64,000 nucleotides of DNA from an uncultured Methylophilaceae bacterium (lineage in GTDB: Bacteria > Pseudomonadota > Gammaproteobacteria > Burkholderiales > Methylophilaceae): assembly GCA_903834185.1 (NCBI GenBank), contig CAILHX010000006.1:54732-118731 (forward strand), read 5' to 3'. Below are positions 47,529 through 64,000 of this stretch, one piece after another. The translations under genes and the position numbers were made by a program. Numbering within the stretch: the first letter of the stretch is position 1; every line of letters begins with the position of its first letter. The notes below the pieces were generated by a model. That model saw nothing but the letters and a program-made list of their open reading frames with translations, was not told the DNA's origin and made no database searches.

Positions 47529-47531
47529 ATT

Positions 47532-48893
47532 CTATACCGGGCGACGGGCACGCTGTGGACGATTACCTGCACCAGCACCGGCTGGTTTGGCGTCATGCCA
47601 GAACTTCTTTTTGCCATCAGCAGCTGCGCCATTACCCGTGCTATTTCCATTACGGTTACCGGCACCCTGATACGACGAATTGCCACTGCCGTTTCGTGAT
47701 TTTCCGGCATAAGGCTTCTTGCCGCCGCTACCGGCAGGCTTGCTGCTAGGCGCGCGTTGTTGCGGTTCCAGGCCGGGGATAATCTCCGCAGTCAGGCGTT
47801 GTCCGGTCAGACGCTCGATACCGTAAAGGTGGCGGCGATCCGAATGCGATGCGAACGATACTGCAATCCCTGTTTTGCCGGCACGGCCGGTACGGCCGAT
47901 ACGGTGTACATAATCTTCTGCGATCTTGGGCAAGTCGAAATTGATCACATGGGTGATGCCGTTGACATCAATCCCGCGTGCCGCCACATCCGTTGCCACC
48001 AGCACACGCAGGTCGCCATGACGCAGTTTGGTGATGGTACGGTTACGCGCACTCTGGTTCATATCGCCGTGCAATGCAGCTGCCTTGTGACCGGCAGCGA
48101 AAAGATCGCCTGCCAGTGAGTCGGCTTCGCGCTTGGTTGCGGTGAATACAATGGCTTGGCCCAATTCAACATCAGCCAGTATATGGTTCAATATTTTATG
48201 TTTGTGTGACAGATTGTCGACAAAATGCAGTTTTTGTTCGATCTGTTCATGGCGCGCTTGCGCAGTCGAGATCTCGATACGCATAGGATCCTTCAGCAAA
48301 CGTCCCGCCAGCTTGCCCACATTGCCGTCCAGCGTGGCAGAGAACAACAGCGTCTGGCGTGTGCCTGGGGTTGCAGCGGCGATGCGTTCTACATCGTCGA
48401 TGAAGCCCATGTCCAGCATGCGGTCAGCTTCATCCAGCACCAGAACTTCCAGACGCGAGAAATCAATACGTCCGCGTTCCATGTGGTCGATCAGGCGGCC
48501 AGGAGTGGCCACCAGAATGTCTACAGGTTGCGATAGCAGTTTGTTTTGCACCGGGTACGGCATACCGCCTACCACGCTCACAGTGCGGGCACGCATGTAC
48601 TGTCCGTACTTGCGGGCAGCTTCGTTCACCTGTGCCGCCAGTTCGCGGGTCGGGGTCAGTACCAGCACACGCGGGCCACGGCTGCGGCTTGCAGAAGGCG
48701 TGGCGATGCGATTGAGTGAAGGCAGGATAAAGGCTGCGGTCTTGCCGGTGCCGGTCTGGGCAGAGGCAAGCAGGTCGCGGCCTGATATGGCAGCAGGTAT
48801 TGCTGCCAGTTGAATAGGGGTAGGTTCAGTATAGCCAGCCTCGGCGATTGCTTTGAGGATGGACGGATTTAGAGCGAGTTCTTGAAAAGACAC
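47532..48893 (-). CDS. DEAD-box RNA helicase (proximal of two)
   Basis: 453 residues with a full set of DEAD-box motifs: GYTEPTPIQ, AQTGTGKTAAF, PTRELAAQ, VLDEADRMLDMGF, SATLD, TDVAARGIDV and HRIGRTGRAGKTG. The tail (from about 365) is rich in Gly, Asn, Ser and Lys with a GNRNGNSTGNG stretch. GTG 48893 follows AAGGAAG at 5 bp. A leader of about 190 nt is predicted from the promoter at 49091-49118. The two helicases are paralogs and probably co-transcribed. Confidence 0.92.
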   Translation of the reverse strand: MSFQELALNPSILKAIAEAGYTEPTPIQLAAIPAAISGRDLLASAQTGTGKTAAFILPSLNRIATPSASRSRGPRVLVLTPTRELAAQVNEAARKYGQYMRARTVSVVGGMPYPVQNKLLSQPVDILVATPGRLIDHMERGRIDFSRLEVLVLDEADRMLDMGFIDDVERIAAATPGTRQTLLFSATLDGNVGKLAGRLLKDPMRIEISTAQARHEQIEQKLHFVDNLSHKHKILNHILADVELGQAIVFTATKREADSLAGDLFAAGHKAAALHGDMNQSARNRTITKLRHGDLRVLVATDVAARGIDVNGITHVINFDLPKIAEDYVHRIGRTGRAGKTGIAVSFASHSDRRHLYGIERLTGQRLTAEIIPGLEPQQRAPSSKPAGSGGKKPYAGKSRNGSGNSSYQGAGNRNGNSTGNGAAADGKKKFWHDAKPAGAGAGNRPQRARRPV

Positions 48894-49090
48894 AAAGGCT
48901 TCCTTGTAAAAAATAAGGCAAAAAAGCGCAAGCGAGCATCTTCTGAGACGAGTCAGAGAAAGGCGGTAGTGGCCAGCGCACGGGCATCGTCACTAACCGA
49001 AAATAAAGAACCAGGAATTTACTGGAAAAAAGAGAGGTCAGAGCGATGAATCGTCGGTAATCAATACAATCTACCGAATCGAAGTCGCGC

Positions 49091-49118
49091 ATTGTACGGA
49101 GTTAAATCTTTCTGTCAA
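49091..49118 (-). promoter_or_regulatory. Sigma-70 promoter for the DEAD-box helicase pair
   Basis: On the reverse strand TTGACA (49113-49118) is followed after 16 bp by TACAAT (49091-49096), a near-consensus promoter. Transcription would start near 49085, about 190 nt before the GTG start at 48893. Confidence 0.7.
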
Positions 49119-49169
49119 CACTTATGTGGTAATATGCGCGCCTTTTGCAAAATAGAGTATCTACAGTCC

Positions 49170-50987
49170 ATGTCACGCGCCTTAAGAAATATTGCCATCA
49201 TCGCCCACGTTGACCACGGTAAGACCACCATGGTGGACAAGCTTTTACAACAATCCGGTACTTTTGCCGCCCACCAACAAGTGCAAGAACGGGTGATGGA
49301 TTCCAACGATCTGGAAAAAGAACGTGGCATCACCATCCTCGCCAAGAATACGGCGGTGGATTACAAAGGCACACATATCAACATCGTGGATACACCAGGA
49401 CACGCCGACTTCGGCGGCGAAGTGGAGCGCGTGCTGGGTATGGTGGACGGCGTGTTGTTGCTGGTCGATGCGGTGGAAGGCCCGATGCCGCAAACCCGCT
49501 TCGTTACCAAGAAAGCACTGGCGCTGGGTCTGAAGCCTATCGTCGTGATCAACAAGGTTGACAGGCCTGGCGCCCGTTGCAGCTGGGTCATCAACCAGAC
49601 TTTTGATCTGTTTGCCAACCTTGGTGCGACCGACGAGCAACTGGATTTTCCTGTCGTATATGCATCAGCCATTAACGGCTACGCCATGCTAGATATGGAA
49701 AAGCCGTCAGACAACATGAGCGCGCTGTTCGATACCGTGCTCAGCCACGTGTCACCGCCAGTGGGTGACCCGGAAGCGCCTTTACAGTTACAGCTTGCTG
49801 CACTCGACTATTCCAGTTATACGGGGAGATTGGGGGTAGGCCGCATACGTAATGGTCGCATCAAGCCGGGCCAGATGGTCACCGTCATGAATGGCGACGT
49901 ACAGATGGCACAAGGCAAGATCAACCAGGTGCTCGGTTTCCAGGGTCTGGAACGCGTGCCGGTAGAACAGGCCGAAGCTGGCGATATCGTGATTATCTCC
50001 GGTTTGGACGAGATCGGCATAGGCGTCACCATCGCCGACAGGGAAAACCCGGTCGGCTTGCATGTGATGCAGGTGGACGAGCCGACCCTGACCATGGACT
50101 TCATGGTTAATTCCAGCCCGCTGGCAGGCACCGAAGGCAAGTTCGTCACCACCCGCCAGATACGCGATCGTCTGGCGAAGGAGTTACTGGTAAACGTGGC
50201 ACTGCGTGTGGATGAGACCGGTGATGCCGACGTGTTCCGCGTTTCCGGCCGTGGCGAGTTGCACCTGACTATTTTATTAGAGAATATGCGCCGCGAAGGC
50301 TTCGAGATCGCCGTGGGCAAACCGCGCGTGGTAATCAAGGAAGTCGATGGTGAAAAATGCGAGCCTTATGAGATTCTGACGGTGGATCTGGAAGATGAGA
50401 ACCAGGGTGTCGTGATGGAAGAGCTTGGGCGTCGTCGTGGCGAGTTACAGAACATGGCCTCAGACGGCAATGGCCGTACCCGCCTGGAATACCGCATCCC
50501 CGCACGCGGACTGATCGGTTTCCAGAGTGAATTCCTCACCATGACCCGCGGTACCGGCCTGATGGCGCACATATTCGATGAGTATGCGCCGCTCAAGGCA
50601 GACATGCCGGGTCGTCGCAATGGCGTGCTGATCTCGCAGGATCATGGCGAAGCTGTGGCGTATGCGCTGTGGAAACTGCAAGATCGTGGCCGCATGTTCG
50701 TCAGTCCCGGTGACAAGCTATACGAAGGTATGGTGATCGGTATCCACAGTCGTGATAACGATTTGATCGTGAACCCCATCAAGGGCAAGCAACTCACCAA
50801 CGTGCGTTCATCCGGCACCGATGAAGCCGTGCGTCTGGTTCCCCCTATCCTGATGTCGCTGGAATATGCGGTGGAATTTATTGATGACGATGAGCTGGTG
50901 GAGATTACCCCCAAGTCATTGCGAATCCGTAAACGCTTCTTGCTTGAACATGAACGCAAGAAGGCTGCTAACGCGAAGTTGACCTAA
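49170..50987 (+). CDS. typA: Translational GTPase TypA/BipA
   Basis: 605 residues from ATG 49170 ([20 protein letters not shown]), the standard family start; an open frame reaching 49092 is rejected. G1 AHVDHGKTT, switch [12 protein letters not shown]3 [12 protein letters not shown] and G4 NKVDRPGAR are intact, followed by EF-G-like domains and the TypA-specific C-terminal domain ([15 protein letters not shown]). It assists ribosome assembly and stress or cold adaptation. Confidence 0.96.
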
Positions 50988-50994
50988 TAAGGCA

Positions 50995-51027
50995 AATAAA
51001 AAGCCCGGCAATGCCGGGCTTTTTATT
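50995..51027. terminator. Intrinsic terminator after typA
   Basis: AATAAAAAGCCCGGCA and TGCCGGGCTTTTTATT form a perfect 16-bp inverted repeat, A-rich on one side and T-rich on the other. Confidence 0.92.
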
Positions 51028-51429
51028 GGGTGTAATTATTTGAACAGCTTGGCCATGCGAGTAAGCAGTTTAGTGACGGCCATCCCGGAAGGTATTGATT
51101 CTTTCCTCTGCAAGCAGTCGTTCAGTGATCATCATGCCACAGGTCGGTTTCGACTCTTTGGAGACATTGAGGAGGGCACTGCATTCTGTGCCGCCTATTG
51201 TTGATGGTCAATTTCACCCCAGCAGACGCAGCGGGCATCGGAAATGTTTGAGCCAACAGTTATTTCAGTGAGCGTGCCTGAGTAGGCTCTAATGCCTTGG
51301 TCACTGGTTCTGCAAGATGTGCGGAATCGATTCGGAATCGGTGCATAAGGCACCAGAACGGCGCGCTTTCATCCCTTAAAGATCAGCAATTATTTTTACT
51401 TTTTATAAATTAATCATAATGTTAAATAT
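51028..51429. other. Long intergenic region before the guanidine operon
   Basis: About 400 bp without a gene I can support. It holds an unexplained 46-codon reverse-strand frame (51070-51207), nested inverted repeats between GTTCTG (51307-51312) and CAGAAC (51354-51359), an NtrC-like site GCACC-N5-GGCGC (51350-51364), and an AT-rich stretch (51385-51430) with an IHF-like sequence AATCAT-N4-TTA at 51412-51424. No guanidine-I riboswitch signature was seen here. Confidence 0.5.
51350..51364. promoter_or_regulatory. Candidate NtrC-type enhancer site
   Basis: GCACC-AGAAC-GGCGC matches the NtrC dyad GCACC-N5-GGTGC at nine of ten defined bases. It is centred about 100 bp upstream of the predicted sigma-54 start, a usual enhancer distance. 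Single site only; inference. Confidence 0.4.
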
Positions 51430-51431
51430 TT

Positions 51432-51447
51432 TGGCATGACTAATGCT
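51432..51447 (+). promoter_or_regulatory. Sigma-54 promoter of the guanidine operon
   Basis: TTGGCATGACTAATGCTT carries GG at 51433-51434 and GC at 51445-51446, exactly 12 bp apart, matching TGGCAYG-N4-NTGCT. Expected start near 51458, leaving a 53-nt leader before the binding-protein gene. Two short palindromes of the form GTA-A-TAC lie just after it (51460-51466 and 51481-51487). Confidence 0.65.
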
Positions 51448-51510
51448 TATTTTAGCTCAGTAATACTATTATTTAAATTCGTAATACTAATACCGAGAAA
51501 GGGCATGTTC

Positions 51511-52512
51511 ATGGAATCCAGAAAATTAAAGTTGAATGTTCATCGAATATTCTACAAAGCTGCGCTACCAATATTAGCACTTAGTTTCTCAATGACAGCG
51601 CACGCTGCGGAGCCTCTTAAGATTGGTTATAGCGATTGGCCAGGTTGGGTTGCTTGGCAAGTGGCAATTGATAAGGGCTGGTTTAAGGATGCGGGTGTTG
51701 ATGTCAAATTTGAATGGTTTGATTACTCAGCCTCCATGGATGCATTTACTGCTGGCAAGCTAGATGCTGTATTCATGGCTAACTGTGACGCCTTAGTCAC
51801 TGGTGCTGGTGGTGGCAGAAACAAGATGATTCTTATTACTGACTACTCTAACGGCAATGACATGATCATCGCCAAGCCAGGCATCAAGACGCTTACCGAT
51901 TTAAAAGGTAAAAAAGTGGCTGTCGAAAGTGGGTTGGTTGAGCATCTTTTATTACGTAACGGGATGAAAAAAGCAGGCATGAAAGCAGGGGACATTGAAA
52001 TTGTGAATGCAAAAACCAATGAAATGCCTCAAGTGCTGCCTTCTAATGACATTTCAGCAGTAGGAGCATGGGAGCCGATTGCGGGGCAAGCTCGAAAAGC
52101 AGTGCCTGGCGCCAAAGCCATTTATACCTCTGCGGATGAACCAGGGTTAATTTACGACGCTTTATCAGTGAATCCTTCGAGTGTAAAAGAGCGTCGTGCT
52201 GACTGGCAAAAAGTCGTCGGCGTTTGGGGGAAAGTGGTGAGCTATATTGAGGATCCTGCTACGCAAGCAGATGCAGTCAAAATTATGGCAGCCCGTTCAG
52301 GGAGCACTCCTGCAGAATATTTACCTTTGTTAAAAGGCACCAAATTACTCACGCTTGAGGATAACAAAAAGGTTTATGTGAAAGCGGCAGGTTACCAATC
52401 CATTTATGGTTCCACTGAAACGGCCAATAATTTCAATTGGTACAACAAAGCTTATGGCCTCAGCCAAAACGTCAACAGCTATATTGACTCATCATTCATC
52501 AGCGGAAACTAG
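51511..52512 (+). CDS. ABC transporter substrate-binding protein, probably for guanidine
   Basis: 333 residues from ATG 51511, placed 7 bp after GAGAAAGGG; longer frames to 51436 would run through the sigma-54 promoter. Signal peptide with cleavage at THA-AEP. The mature protein (PLKIGYSDWPGWVAWQVAID, ADPGLIYD-like segment, TANNFNWYNKAYG) belongs to the NitT/TauT-like binding proteins found beside urea-carboxylase-type genes. In light of the downstream riboswitch the ligand is inferred to be guanidine. First gene of the operon. Confidence 0.85.
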   Translation: MESRKLKLNVHRIFYKAALPILALSFSMTAHAAEPLKIGYSDWPGWVAWQVAIDKGWFKDAGVDVKFEWFDYSASMDAFTAGKLDAVFMANCDALVTGAGGGRNKMILITDYSNGNDMIIAKPGIKTLTDLKGKKVAVESGLVEHLLLRNGMKKAGMKAGDIEIVNAKTNEMPQVLPSNDISAVGAWEPIAGQARKAVPGAKAIYTSADEPGLIYDALSVNPSSVKERRADWQKVVGVWGKVVSYIEDPATQADAVKIMAARSGSTPAEYLPLLKGTKLLTLEDNKKVYVKAAGYQSIYGSTETANNFNWYNKAYGLSQNVNSYIDSSFISGN

Positions 52513-52541
52513 TTAAAAATACTTAAAGAAAGGTATCTATC

Positions 52542-53399
52542 ATGAAACTCAATATGTTGAGTAAAACGTTCAAACACACGATGTCCTGTGTGGTAGCACC
52601 TTCGCTAGCTTTAGGCATTTCGTTTGCAGCATACGCGGATGCTGATTCGGATTTGGAGCCAAACATCAGTATTGGTTACCACGTAGGCGTCATTTCTGAT
52701 TATCGCGTACGCGGTATTGCGCAAACCTCCGGCGATCCAGCGCTTCAAGGCGGGATTGATTTGACAACAAAACCCGGTTTTTATGTAGGCACTGCGTTTT
52801 CTAATCAAACCTGGGTCAAGGAGCTCAATGGCTCAACCAAAGGCAGCATAGAATGGGACGTTTACGGTGGATTCAGAGCGCAAGTGGCTGACACTGGTTT
52901 TTCTTATGACGTTGGTGTCATCACTTATCAGTACCCGGGTAACAATTCTGGTAAGAATGCTTTCGCCAGTCCTTCTGGTACGTCTAATGGCGCAAGTGGA
53001 CCTTTTTTCCCTGCTGGATCCTATAGCAATGCCAGTACCGTCGAAGCCTACGGTGATTTGACCTACGGAATCTACACTTTTAAATACAACCGAAGTCTAG
53101 GCAGTTTTCTAGGCAATTTGAACAGTTCGGGTAGCCAATACTTTGACTTAAGTGCAGCGGTTGCCATCCCTTATGGTTTAACACTTACGCCACATATCGG
53201 ACGTCAACTGATCCCTGGTCAAGGCGGAGTAGGCGACTATACCGACTTGGCATTAACCTTAAGCAAGGATTTTGGCAATGGGTTCAGCGCAACGCTCGCT
53301 GGATTAAGCACGAACGCCAACAGACCTTTCTACAGTGACAAATCGGGAAAATACCTGGGCAACAGAAAAATAACCGCTGGTGTGGTCTATAGCTTCTAA
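52542..53399 (+). CDS. TIGR02001-family outer-membrane protein
   Basis: 285 residues with a signal peptide (cleavage near YAD-ADS) and amphipathic beta strands ending in the classical C-terminal aromatic GVVYSF. The opening (ISIGYHVGVISDYRVRGIAQTSGDPALQGGID; in short SDYRVRGIAQTSGDPALQGG) is the hallmark of the TIGR02001/Gcw_chp family. The family function is unknown. Its place between the binding protein and the permease suggests it lets the substrate cross the outer membrane. Confidence 0.8.
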   Translation: MKLNMLSKTFKHTMSCVVAPSLALGISFAAYADADSDLEPNISIGYHVGVISDYRVRGIAQTSGDPALQGGIDLTTKPGFYVGTAFSNQTWVKELNGSTKGSIEWDVYGGFRAQVADTGFSYDVGVITYQYPGNNSGKNAFASPSGTSNGASGPFFPAGSYSNASTVEAYGDLTYGIYTFKYNRSLGSFLGNLNSSGSQYFDLSAAVAIPYGLTLTPHIGRQLIPGQGGVGDYTDLALTLSKDFGNGFSATLAGLSTNANRPFYSDKSGKYLGNRKITAGVVYSF

Positions 53400-53413
53400 A
53401 AATTGCAATGACT

Positions 53414-53454
53414 GGAAAGCGGCCTGAAATATGCACTGTTTTCAGGCCGCTTCC
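53414..53454 (+). other. Strong intercistronic hairpin without U tract
   Basis: GGAAAGCGGCCTGAAA pairs with TTTCAGGCCGCTTCC (15 bp, one bulged A) around a 9-10 nt loop. No T run follows, so it is not a standard terminator; it may protect the upstream binding-protein/outer-membrane mRNA from decay. Confidence 0.6.
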
Positions 53455-53502
53455 AAGTAAACATTATTGCTTGGCGTTCAATATTAGTTAAAGGGAATAA
53501 GA

Positions 53503-54468
53503 ATGAATATATCTTCATGGTTTGTGGTGCGGAGAGAACTCTCGCAAAACAAGAGGACCATATTGGGGATTTGCTCCTTCTTACTCCCATTATTAATATG
53601 GTTTATGGTGAGTTACGTGCCATTTGTTTGGCACCCAATGATGCGTATCAACAAACCTGGTGGGGTGGACTATTTTCAAATAGGCATGCTCGTTGATAAA
53701 GAGGTCTTTGCTGAAGAGATGGACAATATGAAATCAGCAAAGCAGGCGCTTCCGGAAGGAGCGCCTGCTAATCCCATCTATTTGCCTGCGCCGGTTGATG
53801 TTGCCAAGGCACTTTATACGGGTTTCACGACGCCCCCTGAACAAAAAGATGGTCAGTGGCTTCATCAAAGCCTTTGGCATAGTATAAAAATTATTTTTTC
53901 CGGGTTCTTTTTATCCTCAATCATAGGTGTGCCTTTGGGCATCCTGTGCGGAACCTACAGCGCAATATCAAGACTCAACGAACCTTTTGTAGAGTTTTTC
54001 CGGTACCTGCCTGCTCCAGCATTCGGTGCATTAGCCGTCGCAATTCTTGGGATCTACGATGGCCCTAAGATTGCCATCATTGTGATTGGGACCCTATTCC
54101 AACAAATTCTCATCATTGCAAATACCACCCGTAAACTAGATTACGCGCTTATTGAGGCTGCGATGACCTTAGGGGCAAATCGATTCAAACTGCTATTCCA
54201 CGTAATCTTGCCCGGTATCTTGCCGGACTTGTACAGGGATCAGCGCATCTTGCTCGGATGGGCCTGGACATACTTGATCATCGCCGAACTCATCGGCACC
54301 ACTTCCGGCATTACTTGGTTTATTACGCAGCAAGCGCGTTACCAGCATTTCGATCGCGTCTACGCAGCCATCATTATTATTGGTCTGCTTGGTCTGGGGG
54401 GTGACTTGATTCTAGCGCTATTAGGTAAAAAAATATTTCGCTGGGACCGCCCTGCTAACAAGGAATAG
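53503..54468 (+). CDS. ABC transporter permease, probably for guanidine
   Basis: 321 residues. An N-terminal membrane helix (about 20-42) is followed by a periplasmic segment of some 85 residues and then a BPD_transp_1 core with about five helices. The EAA-like coupling loop reads [20 protein letters not shown]. Sequence type matches SsuC/TauC-like permeases. ATG 53503 is preceded by AAAGGG. The ATPase gene follows 11 bp later. Confidence 0.85.
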
Positions 54469-54479
54469 GAATCAAAAAA

Positions 54480-55394
54480 ATGACGAACAACTCTTTGCCA
54501 AGCTATCTATCCCAGTCTGAGGCGGTTAAGAATCGATTCACGAAAATAAAATCGCGCGAAGTCATTCTCGAAGCGAAGAACTTATGCAAGAACTACAAGA
54601 CCGAAAAAGGCGATGTCGTTGCCCTCAAAAATGTTAATTTTAAAACCCACAAACGTGAGCTTGTGTGTGTCATTGGTCCTTCAGGCTGCGGTAAATCGAC
54701 CCTCATTCGAATACTGGCAGGCTTGGAGGAACACACCTCAGGTGATGTGCTATTAGAAGGCAAACCTGTGAATGGCCCTGGTCGAGATCGCGGCATGGTG
54801 TTCCAGGGGTATACGCTGTTTCCGTGGTTAACGGTCAAGAAAAACATTATGTTCGGCCTGGAAATGAACAATATCGGTGCCAACGAGGCGGAGAAAGAAG
54901 CAAGTCTATGGCTGGAACTCATAGGCTTGGCAAAATTCGCCAATGCCTATCCACATGAACTTTCTGGCGGCATGAAACAACGCGTCGCCATTGCCCGCGC
55001 TTTAGTCGTTCAACCCAGAATTTTGCTCATGGATGAGCCATTCGGTGCGCTTGATGCGCAGTCGCGTGCCAAGATGCAGGTACATTTGCTTGAAATTTGG
55101 CGAAATATCGACATCACTATTATCTTTATTACACATGATCTGGATGAAGCAATTTTTTTGGCGGATCGTATTTTGGTATTAAAAGCGCATCCCGGGGAAG
55201 TGCAAGAGCTCATCGAAGTGCCGGTTCCTCGCCCCCGCAGCACTACTCAATTCAACTCCCCGGAGTTTCTCGCCACTAAAGCACGGTTGGAAGAATTAAT
55301 CCATCCAGCGGAGCCTGAAACAGAGCCTGAACAAGATAAAAATATCGAACAGCACATGATCCGCTTCGTCAATGTGAATGACAACGTCGAGTAA
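54480..55394 (+). CDS. ABC transporter ATP-binding protein, probably for guanidine
   Basis: 304 residues. Walker [13 protein letters not shown], signature [15 protein letters not shown], Walker [17 protein letters not shown] and switch His in [10 protein letters not shown] are all present. It belongs to the nitrate/sulfonate/taurine group of importers. Residues 1-35 and about 270-304 are extra charged extensions compared with SsuB/TauB. It powers the permease just upstream. Confidence 0.9.
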
Positions 55395-55445
55395 TACTGC
55401 TTTTATGACTAAAAATAATCAGACACGCTAAGATTAACCACGATT

Positions 55446-55904
55446 ATGAACCTGAAAACCAAGACAAAACCAGTCAGTCGCATCAGCATTTCTTTGCCTG
55501 ATGATTTGCAATCAAGTGTGGATGCAATGGTCGTGCAAAGAGGATTTAACAGTCGTTCACAAGCGATTAATGACATGTTGCGTCAACATGTTGCTGATCA
55601 CCAAAGCATAAACGGTAACGAAGTGATGGCTGGCACAATCACCATTCTTTATGACAACTCGAGAAGAGGGCTGCAAAAAAAGTTATCCGATCTGCAATAC
55701 AAACATTTGGATGAAGTGATTAGTTCATTGCATGTACATTTAATGAATAACCAAACGATGGAGGTGATACTCGTGCAAGGACCGGCACAAAAAGTGCAAA
55801 TCATTGCAGATCAAATTATCACCCTCCCCGGAGTCGTTACTGGTCGACTACAACTCATGGCTGCTCTCTTGCCGCCGGTGTATTCGATCACTGGAGAAAT
55901 TTAA
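55446..55904 (+). CDS. NikR-like ribbon-helix-helix regulator lacking two nickel ligands
   Basis: 152 residues. N-terminal ribbon-helix-helix DNA-binding domain (RISISLPDDLQSSVDAMVV, RSQAINDMLRQ) and a C-terminal ACT-like domain, as in NikR. An ungapped alignment with E. coli NikR at an offset of nine keeps Gln84, His96 and His98 (Q75, H87, H89) but replaces ligands H76 and C95 by Tyr85 and Thr104. High-affinity square-planar nickel binding is therefore unlikely. Placed between transporter and enzyme genes, it may regulate the operon in response to another ligand. Confidence 0.8.
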   Translation: MNLKTKTKPVSRISISLPDDLQSSVDAMVVQRGFNSRSQAINDMLRQHVADHQSINGNEVMAGTITILYDNSRRGLQKKLSDLQYKHLDEVISSLHVHLMNNQTMEVILVQGPAQKVQIIADQIITLPGVVTGRLQLMAALLPPVYSITGEI

Positions 55905-55913
55905 GAAGGACGG

Positions 55914-56630
55914 ATGATGCAAGATATTTTATGGGAAGAAATCATACCGGGCGGTCATCATTGGTCGGGTATCGTCAGGCGTGGCAACACCTTGACGCTC
56001 ACTGATCTTGAAGGAGACGCCAATGTCTCAGCTCTGTTTTATAACATAGAGGAGAAACTCGAACGTTACAACATGCCCGACACTTTGAAAGCGCAACATA
56101 CTGCATTTCTGACCAAGGGTAATGTTTGCTATTCCGATATGGGACGTATTTTTTGTTCCATTACAGCGGATACCGTTGGTTGGCATGACACAATCTGCGG
56201 TGTATCAGACGCAGCTCTGATTGAACAAAAGTATGGTAAAGCCGACTTCCAAAGCCATCGAAATGACATGTATCGCAGTGGAAAGGACGGACTTTTAATT
56301 GAGCTGGGCAAATGGGGGTTGGGCAAAAGGGACTTGGCGCCTACGGTGAACTTTTTTAGTAAGATCGTTGCGGGTGAAGATGGTGTACTCAGCTACCAGC
56401 CAGGCAACAGCCAAGTCGGTGATACGGTTGATCTGCGCTTTGAAATGAACACACTGGTCGTCCTTTCAACCTCGCCACACCCACTCGATCCGAAAAGAGA
56501 GTATCAACCAGCCAAGATCAAGATCACAGCGAGCAGATCAGGCAACGTCCCCGCAGATGATGTTTGTCGTAACCACTGTCCACAAAACCAGCGTGGCTTT
56601 ATTAATACTGAACGTTACTACGCGAGCTAA
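55914..56630 (+). CDS. DUF1989 protein UAAP1, carboxyguanidine deiminase subunit
   Basis: 238 residues of the urea-amidolyase-associated protein 1 family (HHWSGIVRRGNTLTLTDLEG, ALFYNIEEKLERYNMPDTLK in parts). The motif ADTVGWHDTICG matches [12 protein letters not shown] in the next protein, so the two are paralogs. Such pairs, long annotated with urea carboxylase, have been shown to act together as carboxyguanidine deiminase (CgdAB), releasing ammonium to give allophanate. ATG 55914 and 55917 are both possible; AAGGA spacing favours 55917 slightly. Confidence 0.88.
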   Translation: MMQDILWEEIIPGGHHWSGIVRRGNTLTLTDLEGDANVSALFYNIEEKLERYNMPDTLKAQHTAFLTKGNVCYSDMGRIFCSITADTVGWHDTICGVSDAALIEQKYGKADFQSHRNDMYRSGKDGLLIELGKWGLGKRDLAPTVNFFSKIVAGEDGVLSYQPGNSQVGDTVDLRFEMNTLVVLSTSPHPLDPKREYQPAKIKITASRSGNVPADDVCRNHCPQNQRGFINTERYYAS

Positions 56631-56633
56631 ATT

Positions 56634-57281
56634 ATGTTGACTAGCAGTCATTTCATTCCAGAGAACGCAGTTATTGATGAAGTGTGTCGGGCGGGTGAGC
56701 CATGGATGGGACTTGTTAAAAAAGGCCAAACCCTTCGCATCCTCGATCTTGAAGGCAATCAAGCCGTGGATACTTTGTTTTACAATGCCGACAATCCAGA
56801 GGAGCGTTACAGTGCGGTTGATACGATTCAACGACAAAGCAGGCTATATCTCACCACTGGGTCCGTCCTCTTTAGTAGCGAAGGTAACCCGATGGCCACG
56901 ATTGTGGCTGACACCTGTGGTCGTCATGATACTTTAGGCGGTGCCTGTGCAGCTGAAAGCAACACCGTACGTTATGCGCTGGATAAAAAATCCATGCATA
57001 GTTGCCGTGATAATTTCATGCATGCGATTGCACATTGTGACTGTGCACATCACCTTCATTTGACCAAGCGGGATATCACAGCAAATATCAATTTTTTCAT
57101 GAACGTGCCCGTTACTGCCGAAGGGGGACTGAGTTTTGAAGATGGTATTTCTGCGCCGGGGAAGTATGTTGAAATTCGCGCCGAAATGAATTTGGCGGTG
57201 TTAATCTCCAATTGTCCGCAACTTAACAACCCTTGCAATGCCTACAATCCAACACCTGTTCGAATGCTAGTGTGGGATTAA
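56634..57281 (+). CDS. DUF1989 protein UAAP2, carboxyguanidine deiminase subunit
   Basis: 215 residues of urea-amidolyase-associated protein 2. It shares the opening ([34 protein letters not shown]) and the [14 protein letters not shown] motif with UAAP1, plus Cys/His-rich [19 protein letters not shown] that may bind metal. It begins 3 bp after UAAP1, consistent with a heteromeric enzyme made in equal amounts. Its stop lies 2 bp before the leader hairpin of the riboswitch region. Confidence 0.88.
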
Positions 57282-57297
57282 TCAGGGTTTCGTGAAC

Positions 57298-57357
57298 CCT
57301 CGGGACGACCCGATTATAAATACAATAAGGCGGGACGACCCAGCCCAAAAGCAGGAG
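57298..57357 (+). promoter_or_regulatory. Guanidine-II (mini-ykkC) riboswitch before the carboxylase gene
   Basis: Two hairpins with ACGA tetraloops: TCGGG/CCCGA with loop 57305-57308, and GGCGGG/CCC-A-GCC (one bulged A) with loop 57335-57338. Both contain the identical core CGGGACGACCC, separated by 20 nt, and the Shine-Dalgarno AGGAG (57353-57357) follows. Tandem stem-loops with ACGR loops upstream of a ribosome-binding site define the guanidine-II class, in which loop-loop kissing with guanidine bound frees the Shine-Dalgarno. Here it is internal to an operon. Confidence 0.9.
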
Positions 57358-57363
57358 AAACAA

Positions 57364-60300
57364 ATGTTTAATAAGGTCCTGATTGCCAATAGAGGCGAAA
57401 TAGCTTGCCGTATCTTGCGCACCCTCAAACGCATGAATATCGCTTCAGTGGCGGTTTATTCCGAGGCAGATGCGAATGCAAAGCATGTGCTGGAGGCCGA
57501 TGAATCCATTTGTGTGGGGCCGGCACCGGCGTCCGATAGCTATCTCAATGTTGAAAATATCCTGGCCGCGGCGAAGTCCACTGGGGCACAAGCCATACAT
57601 CCCGGGTATGGATTTCTCTCTGAAAATCCCGCTTTTGCTGAAGCCTGTGAAGCTGCAGGAATCGCTTTTATCGGGCCTACTCCCCAGCAAATGCGTGAGT
57701 TCGGACTTAAGCATACGGCGCGGGAGCTTGCCCGTCAAAATGCGGTGTCTCTGTTGCCAGGCACAGGCTTGCTCTCTGATGTAAATCATGCACAAACTGA
57801 AGCAGAGCGGATTGGCTATCCGGTCATGCTAAAAAGTACCGCCGGAGGGGGTGGTATCGGGATGCAACTTATCTGGAGCGCTGATCAATTAAATCCTGCG
57901 TTTGAATCTGTCCAACGCCTATCCCGTGCCAACTTCAAGGATAGCGGCATTTATCTTGAGAAATACGTGCAGTCTGCGCGCCATATCGAAGTGCAAATTT
58001 TTGGTGATGGTCAAGGCAATGTCATTGCTTTAGGAGAACGTGATTGTTCCGTTCAGCGTAGAAATCAGAAGGTCATTGAGGAAACGCCTGCTCCAAACAT
58101 CTCGGAATCAGTCCGTGCCAAGTTATGGGAAACAGCTGAAAGTCTTGGTCGCGCTGTGGCTTATCGATCTGCCGGAACGGTCGAGTTTGTGTATGACAAT
58201 GACAGTGGCGAGTTTTATTTCCTGGAGGTCAATACCCGGCTGCAAGTGGAGCATGGCGTGACAGAACTGGTCAGCGGATTGGACTTGGTCGAATGGATGA
58301 TCAGGATTGCGTCTGAAGAAACGTCTCCGTTCGAAGATTACGTTTACAAGCCACAGGGACACGCCATCCAGGTACGGGTGTATGCTGAGGATCCGAATAA
58401 AAATTTCCAGCCATGTAGCGGCGTACTTACCCAGGTCGAATTTCCTCATCAAGCGCGAGTTGATACCTGGGTTGAAACCGGAACTGAAGTCTCACCTTTC
58501 TATGACCCACTAATTGCCAAGGTGTTGGTCCATGCCAATACCCGTGAACAAGCTATCTCAAAACTCAATACCGTTCTACATCAGACCAAACTAAGTGGCA
58601 TTGAAACCAACTTGAACTATCTCCGTCAGGTGCTGGCAGATAGTGTCTTTCCTGCAGGCAAGCAAATTACCCGGTATCTTAATCATTTTGTCTATCAGCC
58701 AACCACGATCGACGTGATTGAGGCCGGGGTACAAAGCACGATTCAGGACTATCCCGGACGTTTGGGCCACTGGGCGGTCGGGGTGCCGCCTTCGGGGCCT
58801 ATGGACCATCTGGCATTTCGTTTTGCTAACCGTTTGGTTGGCAATGATGACGGCACTGCTGCAATAGAGTTAACTCTGATTGGTCCAACCTTGAAGTTCA
58901 ACCATGATGCCGTGATTTCCATCGCTGGCGCGCCTATGAAGGTGGAGTTGAATGACCAGCCTTTATCGCTTTGGGCACCCCATTTTATTCAAGCCGGCAG
59001 TACCCTTAAATTAGGCAGTATTAAAGGGGCAGGCTGCCGTACCTATTTGTCAGTGCAAGGCGGCTTTGATGTACCCGATTATTTGGGAAGCAAGTCCACC
59101 TTCACGCTGGGTCAATTTGGGGGGCATGGCGGACGAATTTTACGGGCGGGTGACGTGATTCACCTTGTATGTAAAAAACCAGTCGTCCCCAAATCATCGC
59201 GCCTCCCTCCAGCTTTGATTCCTGAATACAGGAGTGCTTGGGAAATCGGTGTGTTATATGGCCCGCATGGAGCACCAGACTTTTTCACAGAGTCTGATAT
59301 CACGATGTTTTTCGATACTGACTGGGAAGTGCATTACAACTCCAACAGAACAGGAGTGCGGTTAATCGGGCCCAAGCCGGAATGGGCCCGTAAAGATGGC
59401 GGCGAGGCAGGATTACATCCTTCTAACATTCACGATAATGCCTACGCGATTGGCACAGTAGACTTTACTGGCGATATGCCTGTGATTCTTGGTCCGGATG
59501 GTCCCAGTCTAGGGGGCTTTGTCTGCCCGGCGACGATAGTGCAAGCAGAACTCTGGAAAATGGGGCAGCTCAAGCCAGGTGATACAGTTCGATTTAAACG
59601 CTTAACCCAGGAAGAGGCTTACCAACAAGAACAGGTGCAAGATCAGCAGATCAAAACCCTTCAGGAAGTTAAGCTTCCTCAAGTATCATTATCCGGGATA
59701 TTGAGTACCCCTTTGCTGAAAAGCGTTCCAGCCACGCAATCACAAATCGCGGTGGCTTACAGACAGGCAGGTGATAAAAATCTGCTTGTTGAGTACGGGC
59801 CTTTGATGCTGGATCTCAATTTACGCTTCCGCGTCCATGCGCTGATGCAGTGGCTGGAGAAGCAGTGCATCCCTGGTGTGATTGATCTGACCCCCGGCAT
59901 TCGATCTCTACAGGTGCATTATGATAGTAGATGCCTGCCCGTCGATCAGTTAATGACCATTCTCGCAAGAGCTGAAAATGAATTGCCAGCGATTGAAGAC
60001 ATGGAAGTACCAACACGCATCGTTTATTTGCCCTTGTCATGGGACGACAAGGCCACCCAGTTAGCTATCGAGAAGTACATGCAATCCGTGCGCAAAGACG
60101 CGCCATGGTGCCCGAATAATATCGAGTTTATTAGACGGATCAATGGATTAAGTGATATTGAGCAGGTCAAGGATATTCTATTTAATGCGAGTTACCTCAC
60201 GATGGGCCTGGGGGACGTTTACCTCGGTGCGCCGGTTGCCACCCCTGTCGACCCTCGTCATCGTTTAGTGACGACCAAATATAATCCGGCAAGAACCTGG

Positions 60301-60972
60301 ACACCAGAGAATGCCGTCGGCATTGGCGGCGCCTACATGTGTGTATATGGCATGGAAGGCCCTGGCGGTTACCAGTTTGTGGGGCGCACCATCCAAATGT
60401 GGAATCGCTGGCGTCAGACCAAAGACTTCACACAAGGAAAGCCATGGTTATTGCGATTCTTTGATCAAATTCGGTTTTACCCGGTCTCTGCTGAAGAACT
60501 ACTCAAGATGCGAGAGGATTTTCTGCACGGGAAATTCGAGCTCAGAATTGAAGAGCAAACCTTTAGCCTCAAAAAATATATCGATTTTCTGCAAGAAAAT
60601 GCTGCCTCAATTGCAGAGTTTAAAGATACGCAACAAGCTGCATTTGAAGCAGAGCGCGAACGTTGGATCGCTAGCGGACAAGCCCATTATTCCTATGATC
60701 AGGATGTCGCCTCTGCAGGACCGGATAGTGAACTTGACTTGCCCCCGAATAGCCGTGCAGTCGCTTCACACGTGGCTGGCAATCTGTGGCAAGTCAAAGT
60801 CAAAGTAGGCGATACCGTCAAGCAAGGCGACACTGTCGTGATTGTGGAGTCCATGAAAATGGAAATTAATATTTCAGCGACCGCCAATGGAAAAGTCACC
60901 CATGTCTTTTGCCAGGATGGCACACAAGTGGCCGCGGGTCAGGACTTGTTTATTATTCAGATTGAAGATTAA
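57364..60972 (+). CDS. Guanidine carboxylase (urea carboxylase family, biotin-dependent)
   Basis: 1202 residues from ATG 57364 (MFNKVLIANRGEIACRIL); an upstream GTG frame merely translates the riboswitch. Biotin carboxylase domain (1-450) with GGGGIGMQ and EVNTRLQVEHGVTE, a KipI/KipA-like carboxyltransferase domain (about 470-1100), and a biotin carrier domain with Lys1165 in VESMKMEI. At the position where urea carboxylases have Asn (NFTGD/NWTGD), this protein has Asp700 in GTVDFTGDMP, which I recall as the guanidine-specific residue. It makes carboxyguanidine from guanidine, bicarbonate and ATP. Confidence 0.92.
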   Translation: MFNKVLIANRGEIACRILRTLKRMNIASVAVYSEADANAKHVLEADESICVGPAPASDSYLNVENILAAAKSTGAQAIHPGYGFLSENPAFAEACEAAGIAFIGPTPQQMREFGLKHTARELARQNAVSLLPGTGLLSDVNHAQTEAERIGYPVMLKSTAGGGGIGMQLIWSADQLNPAFESVQRLSRANFKDSGIYLEKYVQSARHIEVQIFGDGQGNVIALGERDCSVQRRNQKVIEETPAPNISESVRAKLWETAESLGRAVAYRSAGTVEFVYDNDSGEFYFLEVNTRLQVEHGVTELVSGLDLVEWMIRIASEETSPFEDYVYKPQGHAIQVRVYAEDPNKNFQPCSGVLTQVEFPHQARVDTWVETGTEVSPFYDPLIAKVLVHANTREQAISKLNTVLHQTKLSGIETNLNYLRQVLADSVFPAGKQITRYLNHFVYQPTTIDVIEAGVQSTIQDYPGRLGHWAVGVPPSGPMDHLAFRFANRLVGNDDGTAAIELTLIGPTLKFNHDAVISIAGAPMKVELNDQPLSLWAPHFIQAGSTLKLGSIKGAGCRTYLSVQGGFDVPDYLGSKSTFTLGQFGGHGGRILRAGDVIHLVCKKPVVPKSSRLPPALIPEYRSAWEIGVLYGPHGAPDFFTESDITMFFDTDWEVHYNSNRTGVRLIGPKPEWARKDGGEAGLHPSNIHDNAYAIGTVDFTGDMPVILGPDGPSLGGFVCPATIVQAELWKMGQLKPGDTVRFKRLTQEEAYQQEQVQDQQIKTLQEVKLPQVSLSGILSTPLLKSVPATQSQIAVAYRQAGDKNLLVEYGPLMLDLNLRFRVHALMQWLEKQCIPGVIDLTPGIRSLQVHYDSRCLPVDQLMTILARAENELPAIEDMEVPTRIVYLPLSWDDKATQLAIEKYMQSVRKDAPWCPNNIEFIRRINGLSDIEQVKDILFNASYLTMGLGDVYLGAPVATPVDPRHRLVTTKYNPARTWTPENAVGIGGAYMCVYGMEGPGGYQFVGRTIQMWNRWRQTKDFTQGKPWLLRFFDQIRFYPVSAEELLKMREDFLHGKFELRIEEQTFSLKKYIDFLQENAASIAEFKDTQQAAFEAERERWIASGQAHYSYDQDVASAGPDSELDLPPNSRAVASHVAGNLWQVKVKVGDTVKQGDTVVIVESMKMEINISATANGKVTHVFCQDGTQVAAGQDLFIIQIED

Positions 60973-60974
60973 GG

Positions 60975-62321
60975 ATGGGCAAGACCTTGAACCTCAATAT
61001 CAAAAGATTACGCACCCAATATCTTTCCGGTGAAATGACGCCTTCGAAGCTGGTAGAAACATTAAACGTTTTAATTAAACAACAGGATGACCATCACATA
61101 TGGATTCGAAGGCTAAGCTTGGAAGAGATGCTGGTCTTCGCGAATAATCTAGAAGATATTGATCCTGCATCATTACCATTGTATGGCATCCCATTTGCCA
61201 TAAAGGATAATATTGACTTGGCTGGCATTCCGACAACAGCAGGCTGCCCTGATTACGCCTACGTCCCCGAAAAAAGTGCCACGGTCGTTCAAAAGCTGAT
61301 TGATGCAGGGGCCATCCCCGTTGGAAAAACGAATCTGGATCAATTTGCCACAGGTTTGGTGGGCACTAGATCACCCTACGGTGCTTGCAAAAATAGCATT
61401 AATCCTGAATTTATCTCTGGTGGGTCGAGTTCTGGATCCGCTGTGGCTGTTGCCCTGGGCATGGCCAGTTTTAGTTTAGGCACCGATACTGCGGGCTCAG
61501 GAAGAGTACCTGCAGCTTTCAATAACCTGGTCGGCCATAAACCAACGTGCGGGCTGGTAAGCACCTCCGGCGTGGTGCCAGCCTGCCGCACTTTGGATTG
61601 TGTGTCTATTTTTGCCAATGACGCAGCAGATGCAGCCACGGTGCTTGATGTCGCGCAAGGATACGACATAGAAGATTCTTACTCACGAAAAGCGCTTCCC
61701 GCTAAAACAATTCCAAAAGATTTTAAATTTGGGGTTCCCCAGGCAAGCCAACTTGAGTTTTTCGGGAACGAGGAAACACGACAACTTTTTGATGATGCAG
61801 TCAGAAGGATAGAATCCATAGGCGGACAAAAAGTGATAATCGATTTCGCACCGTTCAGAGAGGTCGCCAGGCTGCTGTATGAAGGCCCTTGGGTGGCAGA
61901 GCGATATGCATCCATTCAATCGTTTATTGAAACAAAAGCAGAGAGTCTGTTGCCCGTTACCAAACAAATCATTTCTGGGGCATCACGATTTAATGCCGCT
62001 GATACCTTTAAGGCGCTCTATCGTCTTAATGAGCTCCGACGACTGAATGAACATGTCTGGGACGATATTGATGTGCTAGTGACCCCGACAGCGGGCACTA
62101 TATACAGCGTCATGGAGGTTGAATCGGACCCTGTGAAAACCAACAGCAATCTTGGCTATTACACCAACTTCATGAACTTGCTTGATCTTTCTGCCGTCGC
62201 CATTCCGGCGGGTTTTCAATCCAATCAATTACCATTCGGTGTAACGATCGCGGCTCCCGCGTTTAGCGATCAAGCCTTGCTAGACTTGGGTGGCCGTCTG
62301 CACGCGTCACTGAATCCATAA
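60975..62321 (+). CDS. atzF: Allophanate hydrolase, amidase domain only
   Basis: 448 residues of the amidase-signature family. The Ser-cisSer-Lys triad is visible: Lys in PFAIKDNIDLAG, cis-Ser in GGSSSGSAVAV and Ser in GTDTAGSGRVPAAF. The closest family is AtzF/DUR1 allophanate hydrolase, normally about 600 residues, but this protein ends after the amidase domain; the C-terminal domain is the next gene. It starts 2 bp after the carboxylase stop. It turns allophanate into N-carboxycarbamate and ammonium. Confidence 0.9.
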   Translation: MGKTLNLNIKRLRTQYLSGEMTPSKLVETLNVLIKQQDDHHIWIRRLSLEEMLVFANNLEDIDPASLPLYGIPFAIKDNIDLAGIPTTAGCPDYAYVPEKSATVVQKLIDAGAIPVGKTNLDQFATGLVGTRSPYGACKNSINPEFISGGSSSGSAVAVALGMASFSLGTDTAGSGRVPAAFNNLVGHKPTCGLVSTSGVVPACRTLDCVSIFANDAADAATVLDVAQGYDIEDSYSRKALPAKTIPKDFKFGVPQASQLEFFGNEETRQLFDDAVRRIESIGGQKVIIDFAPFREVARLLYEGPWVAERYASIQSFIETKAESLLPVTKQIISGASRFNAADTFKALYRLNELRRLNEHVWDDIDVLVTPTAGTIYSVMEVESDPVKTNSNLGYYTNFMNLLDLSAVAIPAGFQSNQLPFGVTIAAPAFSDQALLDLGGRLHASLNP

Positions 62322-62349
62322 AAATTAGCGAATACAAATGGAGAAAATA

Positions 62350-62751
62350 ATGGATGCAACAGTCAAAGTAGCGGTATGCGGGGCTCACATGAGCGGATTA
62401 CCTCTAAATGGTCAGCTCACTAATTTAGGAGCCAGCTTGGTCAGTAAAACCACAACCTCTGCAAACTACCGTCTTTATTATTTGGCTGGTTTTACGCCAA
62501 CTCGTCCAGGCATGATCCGGGTTAAAAAAGAAGGTGCCAGGATTGAGCTAGAGGTTTGGGAGATTGCCGTATCCAATTATGGATCATTCGTCACGCTCAT
62601 TCCTGCCCCCCTGGGAATTGGCAGAGTGGAGTTGGCGGATGGTACTTGGGTGCAAGGATTTGTTTGCGAAGCCTACGCAACCGAGGATGCAGAAGATATC
62701 AGTGATCACGGTGGGTGGAGAAATTTTTTAGCACATCAGGCAGCTTCATAA
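62350..62751 (+). CDS. Allophanate hydrolase C-terminal domain as a separate protein
   Basis: 133 residues from ATG 62350, 6 bp after GGAG (62340-62343); the upstream ATG 62338 lacks such a site. The sequence (VAVCGAHMSGLPLNGQL, YRLYYLAGFTPTRPGMIRV, WEIAVSNYGSFVTLIPAPLG) is the gamma-glutamylcyclotransferase-like C-terminal domain of AtzF, with VCGAHMSGLPLN its typical opening. In full-length enzymes this domain decarboxylates N-carboxycarbamate. Here it lies 28 bp after the amidase gene, so the enzyme is split. Confidence 0.88.
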   Translation: MDATVKVAVCGAHMSGLPLNGQLTNLGASLVSKTTTSANYRLYYLAGFTPTRPGMIRVKKEGARIELEVWEIAVSNYGSFVTLIPAPLGIGRVELADGTWVQGFVCEAYATEDAEDISDHGGWRNFLAHQAAS

Positions 62752-62791
62752 AGACAAACTCTGCAACTCATCACGAATGAGCACGCAGACT

Positions 62792-64000
62792 CTAGCTTAC
62801 AGCTTCGGCCCATAAGCTATTCAAGTTGGAGAATTTCCATGACGCCGGGTCTTCGCGCGCCACAATCGTGTCATTACTTGATGCATTGGACAAATCCAGC
62901 ACTTCCTGAGTGACGTGAGTCATGGTTATGGTGGAAAAGAAGATTTTGACAATGGGGGTGGTAAGCGAGATTTTGCTCTGATCAATCACTACTGCTATGC
63001 GGCCTGATTCCAGCCGGACCAATGAACCGACCGGATAGATGCCGATGCTTTTTACGAAATGATGGAAGATTTTCTCATCGAAATGACCTTTCCACGAAGC
63101 CATCTTTTTCAGTGACTCCGATGGATCCCAGCCGTCTTTGTAGGGGCGGTTGGAGGTGATCGCATCGTAGACGTCGCAAACGGCCCCCATTCTTGCAAAC
63201 AGGCTTATTTTCTGATCCGGAAGCTTATCCGGGTAGCCGCTACCATCAATTTTTTCATGATGGTGCCGGGCTACGTCTAGGGCGGCTTCAACAGCGTTTT
63301 TTGCTTCCAGCAGCATGTTGTAGCCCGCCATGGGGTGGCCTTGAATAATGCGGAACTCTTCGTCGGTCAGGTTTCCTGGCTTGTCCAGAATTTCGGAAGG
63401 AATGGCCATTTTTCCGACATCGTGCAATAACCCGGCAACACCCGATTGACGAGAGGCTTCAGCATCCAGGCCAAGTTCGTTGGCTAGCGATACCATCATG
63501 GCGCAAACCGCAACAGAGTGCATGTAGGTATAGTCGTCCTTGGTTTTGAGCCGGGCAAGGCTGATGATTGCACTGGGATTGCGCATGATGGAAGAAGAGA
63601 TTTCTTCCACCATGGCGACCGCCTCCTTGGTATCGAGTGCCTTGCCCATGCGTACTTCGTTGAACATTGAAGATACGGCGTCCTTGGCGGTGGAAATGAT
63701 TTTCTTGGCCTGTACCATTTCCTGCTCAATACCGACTTCGGATGATGTGTGTATTGTCACTGCTTGAGGCGCTGGAACTTCTACAGGGGCAGTGATTTCC
63801 ACATGTGCAGGAGTGCTGGCTTTTTGTTTTTTAACATCTGCACCCTTGGCGGTATCGATGACCACTTCTTCGATCTTGCTATCCAGAATCTTCTGGATGG
63901 TTTCTTCATCTTCGATCTTGAATTTCAACTTCCAGAAAGGGTGCTGCATCCATGAGCCGCAAAGCTCATGGATATACATGCCTACAGACAACTCTTTCGA
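62792..64000 (-). CDS. HD-GYP domain protein with DUF3391 N terminus, 5' end outside window
   Basis: The leftward frame is open to the window end (SKELSVGMYIHELCGSWMQHPF), so the true start lies beyond 64000. Residues up to about 120 form DUF3391, followed by an HD-GYP domain with GLLHDVGKMAIP and HHHEKIDGSGYPDKLP, the residues that bind the metal centre and c-di-GMP. Such proteins hydrolyse cyclic di-GMP. It is convergent with the guanidine operon, 40 bp from its last gene. Confidence 0.92.
   Translation of the reverse strand, partial: SKELSVGMYIHELCGSWMQHPFWKLKFKIEDEETIQKILDSKIEEVVIDTAKGADVKKQKASTPAHVEITAPVEVPAPQAVTIHTSSEVGIEQEMVQAKKIISTAKDAVSSMFNEVRMGKALDTKEAVAMVEEISSSIMRNPSAIISLARLKTKDDYTYMHSVAVCAMMVSLANELGLDAEASRQSGVAGLLHDVGKMAIPSEILDKPGNLTDEEFRIIQGHPMAGYNMLLEAKNAVEAALDVARHHHEKIDGSGYPDKLPDQKISLFARMGAVCDVYDAITSNRPYKDGWDPSESLKKMASWKGHFDEKIFHHFVKSIGIYPVGSLVRLESGRIAVVIDQSKISLTTPIVKIFFSTITMTHVTQEVLDLSNASSNDTIVAREDPASWKFSNLNSLWAEAVS

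Follow-up and report, generated by a model that had tools for sequence, protein, structure and literature searches.

Guanidine assimilation operons built around a guanidine carboxylase have been described in Vreelandella boliviensis. There (PMC12508155), an ABC importer, cgdA, cgdB, gca, and atzF follow a Guanidine-I riboswitch at the operon head, a Guanidine-II riboswitch is placed between cgdB and gca, and mgdH and mgdL lie between gca and atzF. Both riboswitches were probed with guanidine, and the inner one was found by in-line probing to bind methylguanidine as well. A 2025 review (PMC12186494) gives the same two-riboswitch split for Raoultella, Erwinia, and Klebsiella, with the importer and deiminase genes first and associated with Guanidine-I, and the carboxylase and hydrolase genes under an internal Guanidine-II. 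The consensus of Guanidine-II, as set out in PMC5486947, consists of two GC-rich hairpins with ACGR loops, with a loop-loop pocket known from crystal work.

The window analyzed here is a 64-kb stretch of contig CAILHX010000006.1 from an uncultured Methylophilaceae bacterium. It contains a guanidine assimilation operon of ten ORFs, whose profile matches correspond to guanidine import and the carboxylase pathway (Table 1). The layout resembles those of V. boliviensis and of Raoultella, Erwinia, and Klebsiella: importer and deiminase genes come first, and the carboxylase and hydrolase genes follow an internal Guanidine-II element between cgdB and gca. Since an internal Guanidine-II has been published at this place, the inner riboswitch is of a known kind. 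The operon head differs from those described, in that a palindrome and an NikR-like regulator gene are present and Guanidine-I (RF00442) is not, none having been found in the window at curated thresholds or in its genome. Furthermore, neither mgdH nor mgdL lies between gca and atzF, which are 2 bp apart. The new feature is the head with palindrome and NikR-like regulator in place of Guanidine-I, of which no description was found in the open-access literature searched.

Seven ORFs lie 5' of the Guanidine-II element rather than the six counted in the original prediction, and they encode the substrate-binding protein, a TorF-type porin, the permease, the ATPase, the NikR-like regulator, CgdA, and CgdB. 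The start of the substrate-binding protein gene was placed after a Shine-Dalgarno-like AGAAAGGG at 51496 to 51503, the ORF list giving 51436.

Table 1. Features of the guanidine assimilation operon, in positions of the 64-kb window
Feature	Position	Strand	Remarks
Sigma54-type -24/-12 motif TGGCATGACTAATGCT (GG-N10-GC)	51432..51447	+	10/12 consensus positions; predicted operon promoter
Palindrome GTAATAC-N14-GTAATAC	51460..51487	.	predicted NikR-like operator over predicted transcription start
ABC transporter substrate-binding protein (NMT1 type)	51505..52512	+	
TorF-family putative porin (Gcw_chp)	52542..53399	+	
ABC transporter permease	53503..54468	+	
ABC transporter ATPase	54480..55394	+	
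NikR-like ribbon-helix-helix regulator, NikR_C domain	55446..55904	+	H76, C95 equivalents = Y, T
CgdA-like carboxyguanidine deiminase subunit	55914..56630	+	TIGR03425, UAAP1
CgdB-like carboxyguanidine deiminase subunit	56634..57281	+	TIGR03424, UAAP2
Guanidine-II hairpin P1	57300..57313	+	ACGA loop 57305-57308
Guanidine-II hairpin P2	57329..57345	+	ACGA loop 57335-57338, bulged A 57342
Shine-Dalgarno-like AGGAG of carboxylase gene	57353..57357	+	
Guanidine carboxylase	57364..60972	+	TIGR02712, 1947 bits; ATG at 57364; Asp700
Allophanate hydrolase, amidase part	60975..62321	+	
Allophanate hydrolase C-terminal domain, separate ORF	62338..62751	+	

The carboxylase was assigned from two marker residues. 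Asp at positions 1330 and 1584 of the Kluyveromyces lactis urea amidolyase numbering is given in PMC11410670 as the mark of a guanidine rather than a urea carboxylase. Asp700 of the window protein aligns to K. lactis Asn1330, and D951, counted by hand along the same alignment, falls at position 1584; both markers are thus Asp. The same pair was found in 73 of 81 loci (the window and L001 to L080), the residue at position 700 being otherwise Cys in five and Asn in three. The five with Cys at this substrate-specificity position are Verrucomicrobial carboxylases (L051, L054, L055, L058, and L059), which possibly act on another substrate.

Several other features of the gene order were recorded. 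The allophanate hydrolase is divided into two ORFs in the window (62304 to 62340), and among loci with both parts readable it was split in 22 and fused in 39. The gap between porin and permease genes holds a strong hairpin at 53412 to 53455 (AAGCGGCCTGAAA / TTTTCAGGCCGCTT), perhaps an mRNA stabilizer or processing site. Genes for a creatininase-family protein and a type III glutamine synthetase stand between the ATPase gene and nikR or cgdA in L001, L002, L005, L012, L013, and others, and are absent from that place in the window, L003, L008, L016, and L017. Of the seven Rfam matches at E ≤ 2 in positions 46000 to 64000, six (50934 to 51062) were set aside as apparently a single terminator hairpin that follows the preceding gene. 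Guanidine-I and Guanidine-III were likewise rejected as candidates, with none in the window at curated thresholds and none at E ≤ 2 in the same 18 kb.

The inner Guanidine-II element

The two ACGA-loop hairpins that had been predicted before the Shine-Dalgarno sequence of the carboxylase gene were both present. Exact CGGGACGACCC blocks occur at 57301 to 57311 and 57331 to 57341, and GGGACGACCC is found exactly at only two sites in the 64-kb window, these being the two hairpins, 20 nt apart. P1 (UCGGG-ACGA-CCCGA) has a perfect stem, while P2 (GGC GGG-ACGA-CCC A GCC) has one bulged A. With a linker of 15 nt, the pair conforms to the two-hairpin ACGR arrangement, in which the linker is mostly at least 13 nt.

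A covariance-model scan had been proposed as a check, and its result was divided. The default Rfam scan of the window gave no match at curated thresholds, and RF01068 was not found in the window's own genome at E ≤ 0.001. In a permissive scan the full 48-position Guanidine-II model aligned to 57297 to 57343, scoring 21.9 bits where the gathering score is 32 (E = 0.014 for 221 bases and 4227 families; 1.1 in 18 kb). At that gathering score the window copy falls outside the family, and the first half of the outcome named beforehand as refuting the prediction, the lack of a covariance-model hit, is thus what the curated threshold gives. The homologous site nevertheless passed the threshold in five of seven relatives (L001, 44.7 bits; L065, 42.5; L003, 38.5; L028, 37.9; L019, 35.6), those in L005 and L013 (Methylovorus sp. 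MM2, which shares the layout) remaining below it. The low score in the window fits the one-base bulge at A57342, and C.A at this P2 pair occurred in just one of 38 distinct hairpin pairs, that of the window. Both observations would also be expected if the window copy were decaying, the bulged A spoiling the aptamer and leaving the carboxylase constitutively translated. That outcome is improbable, however, because P1 is perfect, neither hairpin is disturbed in its loop or in the three pairs that close it, and the P2 stem resumes past the bulge; a base-calling error in the draft assembly is also possible. Folding shows both P1 and the bulged P2.

Conservation was assessed in 80 carboxylase loci and further loci, some genomes being reached twice, and cgdB stood directly 5' of the carboxylase gene in 75. 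Two GACGRC hairpins were detected in the gap between these genes in 46 of the 75 loci, and this placement of Guanidine-II is therefore ordinary for guanidine operons. Across the 38 distinct pairs, the third P1 pair from the loop was paired in every case, with four Watson-Crick types (one G-U), compared with 42% after shuffling. The outer P1 pairs were paired in 79 to 95%, and P2 pairs 1 to 4 in 92 to 100%, with P2 ending beyond that. The 29 loci that failed the strict two-hairpin test included Methylotenera loci with one good and one shorter hairpin, loci with a gap of ≤16 nt, and four loci where a loop reads ACGC or ACGT. Such a loop, in place of ACGR in one hairpin of the gap before the carboxylase gene, was seen in L029, L032, L033, and L035. 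Guanidine-II-like hairpin pairs were also noticed away from carboxylase genes (L083, L088 to L093, and L097).

Taken together, the sequence, the conserved position, and the covariation support the identification of the window element as Guanidine-II, although this particular copy scores below the Rfam cut-off. It precedes the carboxylase and allophanate hydrolase genes only, and the genes upstream would escape it, both as originally proposed. Translational control of the carboxylase by this copy is, like all regulation proposed here, predicted from sequence; no clear anti-Shine-Dalgarno partner for AGGAG was found in the folded region. Between cgdB and the carboxylase gene, an internal sigma70 promoter or terminator was considered and rejected, as counts were not above those in shuffles and none lay in the gap. 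An extra hairpin, GGGTTTCGTGAACCC, occupies 57285 to 57300 directly 3' of the cgdB stop and abuts P1.

The operon head and the NikR-like regulator

Sigma54 promoters follow the pattern GG-N10-GC with TGGCAC and TTGC elements. The motif at the head of the window operon agrees with this consensus at 10 of 12 positions, a score reached by none of 300 shuffles, and is accordingly classed as a sigma54-type promoter motif. The consensus of the NtrC box is TGCAC-N7-GTGCA. Boxes of this type (at least 9/10) were found in 21 of 50 heads, against 0.7 expected in shuffles, this enrichment being the best of 63 combinations of half-site and spacing, and in heads with Guanidine-I they often stood some 100 nt 5' of the sigma54 motif. 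The best match in the window was weak (7/10), short of an NtrC-type promoter. A GGTGC-N5-GCACC repeat at the window head was rejected as a canonical NtrC box, the reversed arrangements being far less enriched, with no more than 5 of the 50 heads where 0.5 were expected. Nitrogen control is thus likely for the operon family, and for the window's copy its basis would be the sigma54 motif. No paper linking a guanidine riboswitch with sigma54, or with NtrC and nitrogen limitation, was found in the open-access literature.

The palindrome begins 12 nt past the sigma54 motif and has one mismatch to GTATTAC-N14-GTAATAC. When L001 to L080 and the window were scanned at spacings of 4 to 30 with up to two mismatches over both half-sites, the N14 spacing gave 17 matches and every other spacing 0 to 4. 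Fifteen of the 17 precede a substrate-binding protein gene, the exceptions being L003 443 and L044 5983. The latter (Opitutaceae, 5983 to 6010) is a second N14 palindrome with two mismatches in that locus, just 5' of the NikR-like gene, and possibly serves autoregulation. The pattern was not enriched genome-wide, its strict form occurring in 24 of 399 genomes compared with about 28 for the reversed control, and the evidence therefore lies in its place and not in its number. In the window's own genome, 51460 to 51487 was the only site with at most one mismatch, and the reversed control pattern also matched once.

The regulator encoded in the operon matched Pfam RHH_1 and NikR_C over the cut-off and passed the curated cut-off of two NikR models. 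It shares the ribbon-helix-helix and NikR_C architecture of NikR from Escherichia coli (1q5v) and Pyrococcus horikoshii (2bj1) and is, by domains, a NikR-family protein. The high-affinity nickel ligands of NikR are H76, H87, H89, and C95, and the E. coli NikR operator is GTATGA-N16-TCATAC, the geometry of which we take to be equal to that of the window palindrome. The differences lie in the half-site, GTATTA, in the setting, since the window palindrome stands by a sigma54-type motif and precedes genes for guanidine use and transport, and in the ligands. The window residues equivalent to the four ligands are Y, H, H, and T, so that the set of nickel ligands is incomplete. Among 28 NikR-like members the C95 equivalent was lost in all and that of H76 in 26, while H87 was kept in 27 and H89 in 23; by the same search, 17 of 17 canonical NikRs of the same order keep all four.

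These counts bear on whether the protein is a sensor of nickel or another metal, which would repress the carboxylase route, itself free of nickel, whenever there is nickel enough for urease or guanidinase. Such a role is suggested by the domain assignment, by the two NikR models passed, and by the H87 and H89 equivalents that remain. The loss of C95 throughout, of H76 in nearly all members, and of H89 in 5 of 28, set against the intact canonical proteins, argues against nickel sensing, and we regard a metal-sensing role as very improbable. Guanidine-I is an RNA sensor, whereas the NikR-like protein is predicted to bind DNA, at the palindrome.

Co-occurrence of palindrome and gene was evaluated in two sets, which overlap in that G007, G006, G017, G466, G095, G177, and G381 are the genomes of L001, L003, L013, L002, L039, L023, and L019, respectively. 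In the first, 49 genomes were searched for both an NikR-like protein (E below 1e-30) and Guanidine-I. The protein was found in 17, of which 16 had a readable head, and the palindrome (at most two mismatches) was present in 15 of these 16. One locus, L079, has the gene without the palindrome. In three loci the gene was apparently missing because the locus ended: it was found downstream by genome search in L022 and L026, and L039 has the palindrome but no NikR-like gene, its contig ending there. To test the association anew, 399 genomes of the order were searched, yielding 13 NikR-like members, 11 of them new once the window's own genome and G466 were excluded. The palindrome stood at the operon head in 10 of the 11, the exception being G486. 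Conversely, in 13 loci with the same transporter genes but no NikR-like gene, the best palindrome match had 3 to 6 mismatches.

The same set allowed the signal to be considered. A carboxylase gene was present in 12 of 13 NikR-like genomes compared with 44 of 386 others (Fisher, 2e-10). In G269 some 55 nt separate the palindrome, which lacks a sigma54 motif, from the matched part of nikR; cgdA, cgdB, and the carboxylase gene come next, and the 15.5 kb examined hold no transporter of this kind. This layout, together with the interchange with Guanidine-I described below, points to guanidine or a product of it as the ligand. G011 points the other way, since there the palindrome, transporter, and NikR-like gene form an operon in a genome that has neither Guanidine-I nor a carboxylase scoring over the cut-off; the signal of the regulator therefore need not be guanidine itself.

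The regulator might instead sense nitrogen status, or another nitrogen compound handled by the products of its neighbors, which are the transporter, a creatininase-family protein, and a type III glutamine synthetase, leaving guanidine to be sensed by the riboswitch alone. G011 fits this, as do six genomes (G413, G263, G327, G298, G153, and G486) in which the module of transporter, glutamine synthetase, and NikR-like genes, mostly with the creatininase-family gene, stands apart from the carboxylase. Yet it appears rather unlikely in view of the frequent presence of a carboxylase in NikR-like genomes and of the transporter-free arrangement of G269. Moreover, the same creatininase-family (PF02633) and glutamine synthetase (TIGR03105) genes also follow the transporter in 10 of the 13 loci without NikR, and 12 of those 13 have Guanidine-I upstream on the same strand. 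Nitrogen status would, in addition, already be served by the sigma54 motif common to both types of head.

Interchange with Guanidine-I

In related operons Guanidine-I follows the sigma54 motif and precedes the first gene, which is the place of the palindrome in the window. The 49 genomes gave 38 Guanidine-I matches, of which 33 could be placed in loci, and one from the order set brought the number placed to 34; the remaining matches of the order set entered by coordinate only. A sigma54 motif (9 to 11 of 12 positions) starts 49 to 73 nt 5' of 32 of these 34 copies, the two without it both belonging to the cyanobacterial locus L041. A motif of at least 9/12 likewise stands just 5' of 25 of 26 palindromes scored, with L200 as the exception.

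Guanidine-I and the NikR-like protein were seldom found together. Guanidine-I occurred in 4 of 17 genomes with the NikR-like protein and in 29 of 32 others (Fisher, 3.6e-6), and in those four it never headed the NikR-like operon but stood at the head of a separate carboxylase operon (L022, L026, and L034) or lay 3' of the carboxylase gene (L037). The copy in L037 (11821 to 11945) has its own sigma54 motif and would start a different transcript. Six genomes of the order set have the NikR-like operon at a distance from the carboxylase gene, and there the carboxylase gene has its own Guanidine-I 1.7 to 3.6 kb upstream.

A quick carboxylase tree of 61 rows was used to follow the type of head, with 49 rows labeled (18 palindrome or NikR-like, 31 Guanidine-I) and 12 left out. 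The head classes were selected, and L046 and L079 were labeled by gene and not by palindrome. On this tree the head type changed 8 times, at least 7 of them forced by starred branches; the number became 9 with L041, L050, and L053 labeled as Guanidine-I and 7 without L046, L079, and L200. A head contrast of 0/16 versus 31 was built from the selected tree labels and was set aside as evidence. In G486 an intact operon from transporter to NikR-like gene is headed by a sigma54 motif and then Guanidine-I. Five kilobases upstream (L220 5380 to 5700), a sigma54 motif and palindrome are stranded with only a short fragment of the substrate-binding protein gene. From its sequence, G486 looks like a head swap caught midway.

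These observations qualify the claim that the uptake and deiminase genes are induced by nitrogen limitation. The sigma54-type motif fits nitrogen induction, but nitrogen as the only signal is not supported by a head in which palindrome and NikR-like gene take the place of Guanidine-I. That the upstream genes respond to nitrogen limitation alone, with any guanidine response limited to the carboxylase part, would be in keeping with the sigma54 motif and with the lack of Guanidine-I in the genome. An operon of this kind with neither head gate does exist: in L035 the sigma54 motif is present, while palindrome, NikR-like gene, and Guanidine-I are all missing. Neither the NikR-like gene nor Guanidine-I was found in L077 or in 6 of 56 carboxylase genomes of the order set (G201, G204, G237, G242, G338, and G385). 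We nevertheless give nitrogen limitation alone little probability, because a conserved palindrome over the predicted start and a regulator gene within the operon take the place of the relatives' Guanidine-I. It is likely that the upstream genes have a nitrogen and signal gate of their own.

Proposed working of the operon

The reading that we favor, with moderate confidence, is that the hairpins at 57300 to 57345 are a Guanidine-II inner gate, and that the sigma54 motif and the palindrome, bound by the operon's own NikR-like regulator, constitute an outer gate. What was seen directly are the motifs and the conservation of their positions, the regulator gene that occurs along with them, the repeated exchange of this head for Guanidine-I, and the missing nickel ligands; that the protein binds DNA, in which direction it controls transcription, what its ligand is, and that the carboxylase is gated at translation are what we infer. 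Under nitrogen limitation, sigma54 polymerase would be activated at the promoter motif. The NikR-like protein, sitting on the palindrome that covers the start site (predicted near 51458), would keep transcription off as long as it senses neither guanidine nor a signal derived from it and would thus do the job performed by Guanidine-I at the same place in relatives. The resulting transcript would carry the transporter, porin, regulator, and deiminase genes outside the control of Guanidine-II. Guanidine bound to the kissing P1 and P2 loops would then free the carboxylase gene's ribosome site and, through coupling, those of the hydrolase genes. Hence, two gates would act one after the other: DNA and protein would register nitrogen and signal at the head, and RNA would then register guanidine at the carboxylase gene, the inner gate sparing ATP and biotin until guanidine is inside the cell.

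A further proposal is more tentative and could well prove wrong: that in the NikR-like protein we have the first transcription factor to respond to guanidine, its nickel site dismantled and reused, and that it is functionally interchangeable with Guanidine-I at sigma54 promoters, so that a protein and an RNA sensor of one ligand have repeatedly replaced each other there. The locus names a candidate protein sensor, for guanidine or a related signal, together with its predicted binding site. It also offers a clean comparison, in which the genes and the sigma54-type motif before them are alike and the gate is RNA in one case and predicted to be protein in the other. Guanidine assimilation in these bacteria is also placed under likely nitrogen control. 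If the proposal is true, this would be a natural case of a riboswitch and a repressor swapping for one function.
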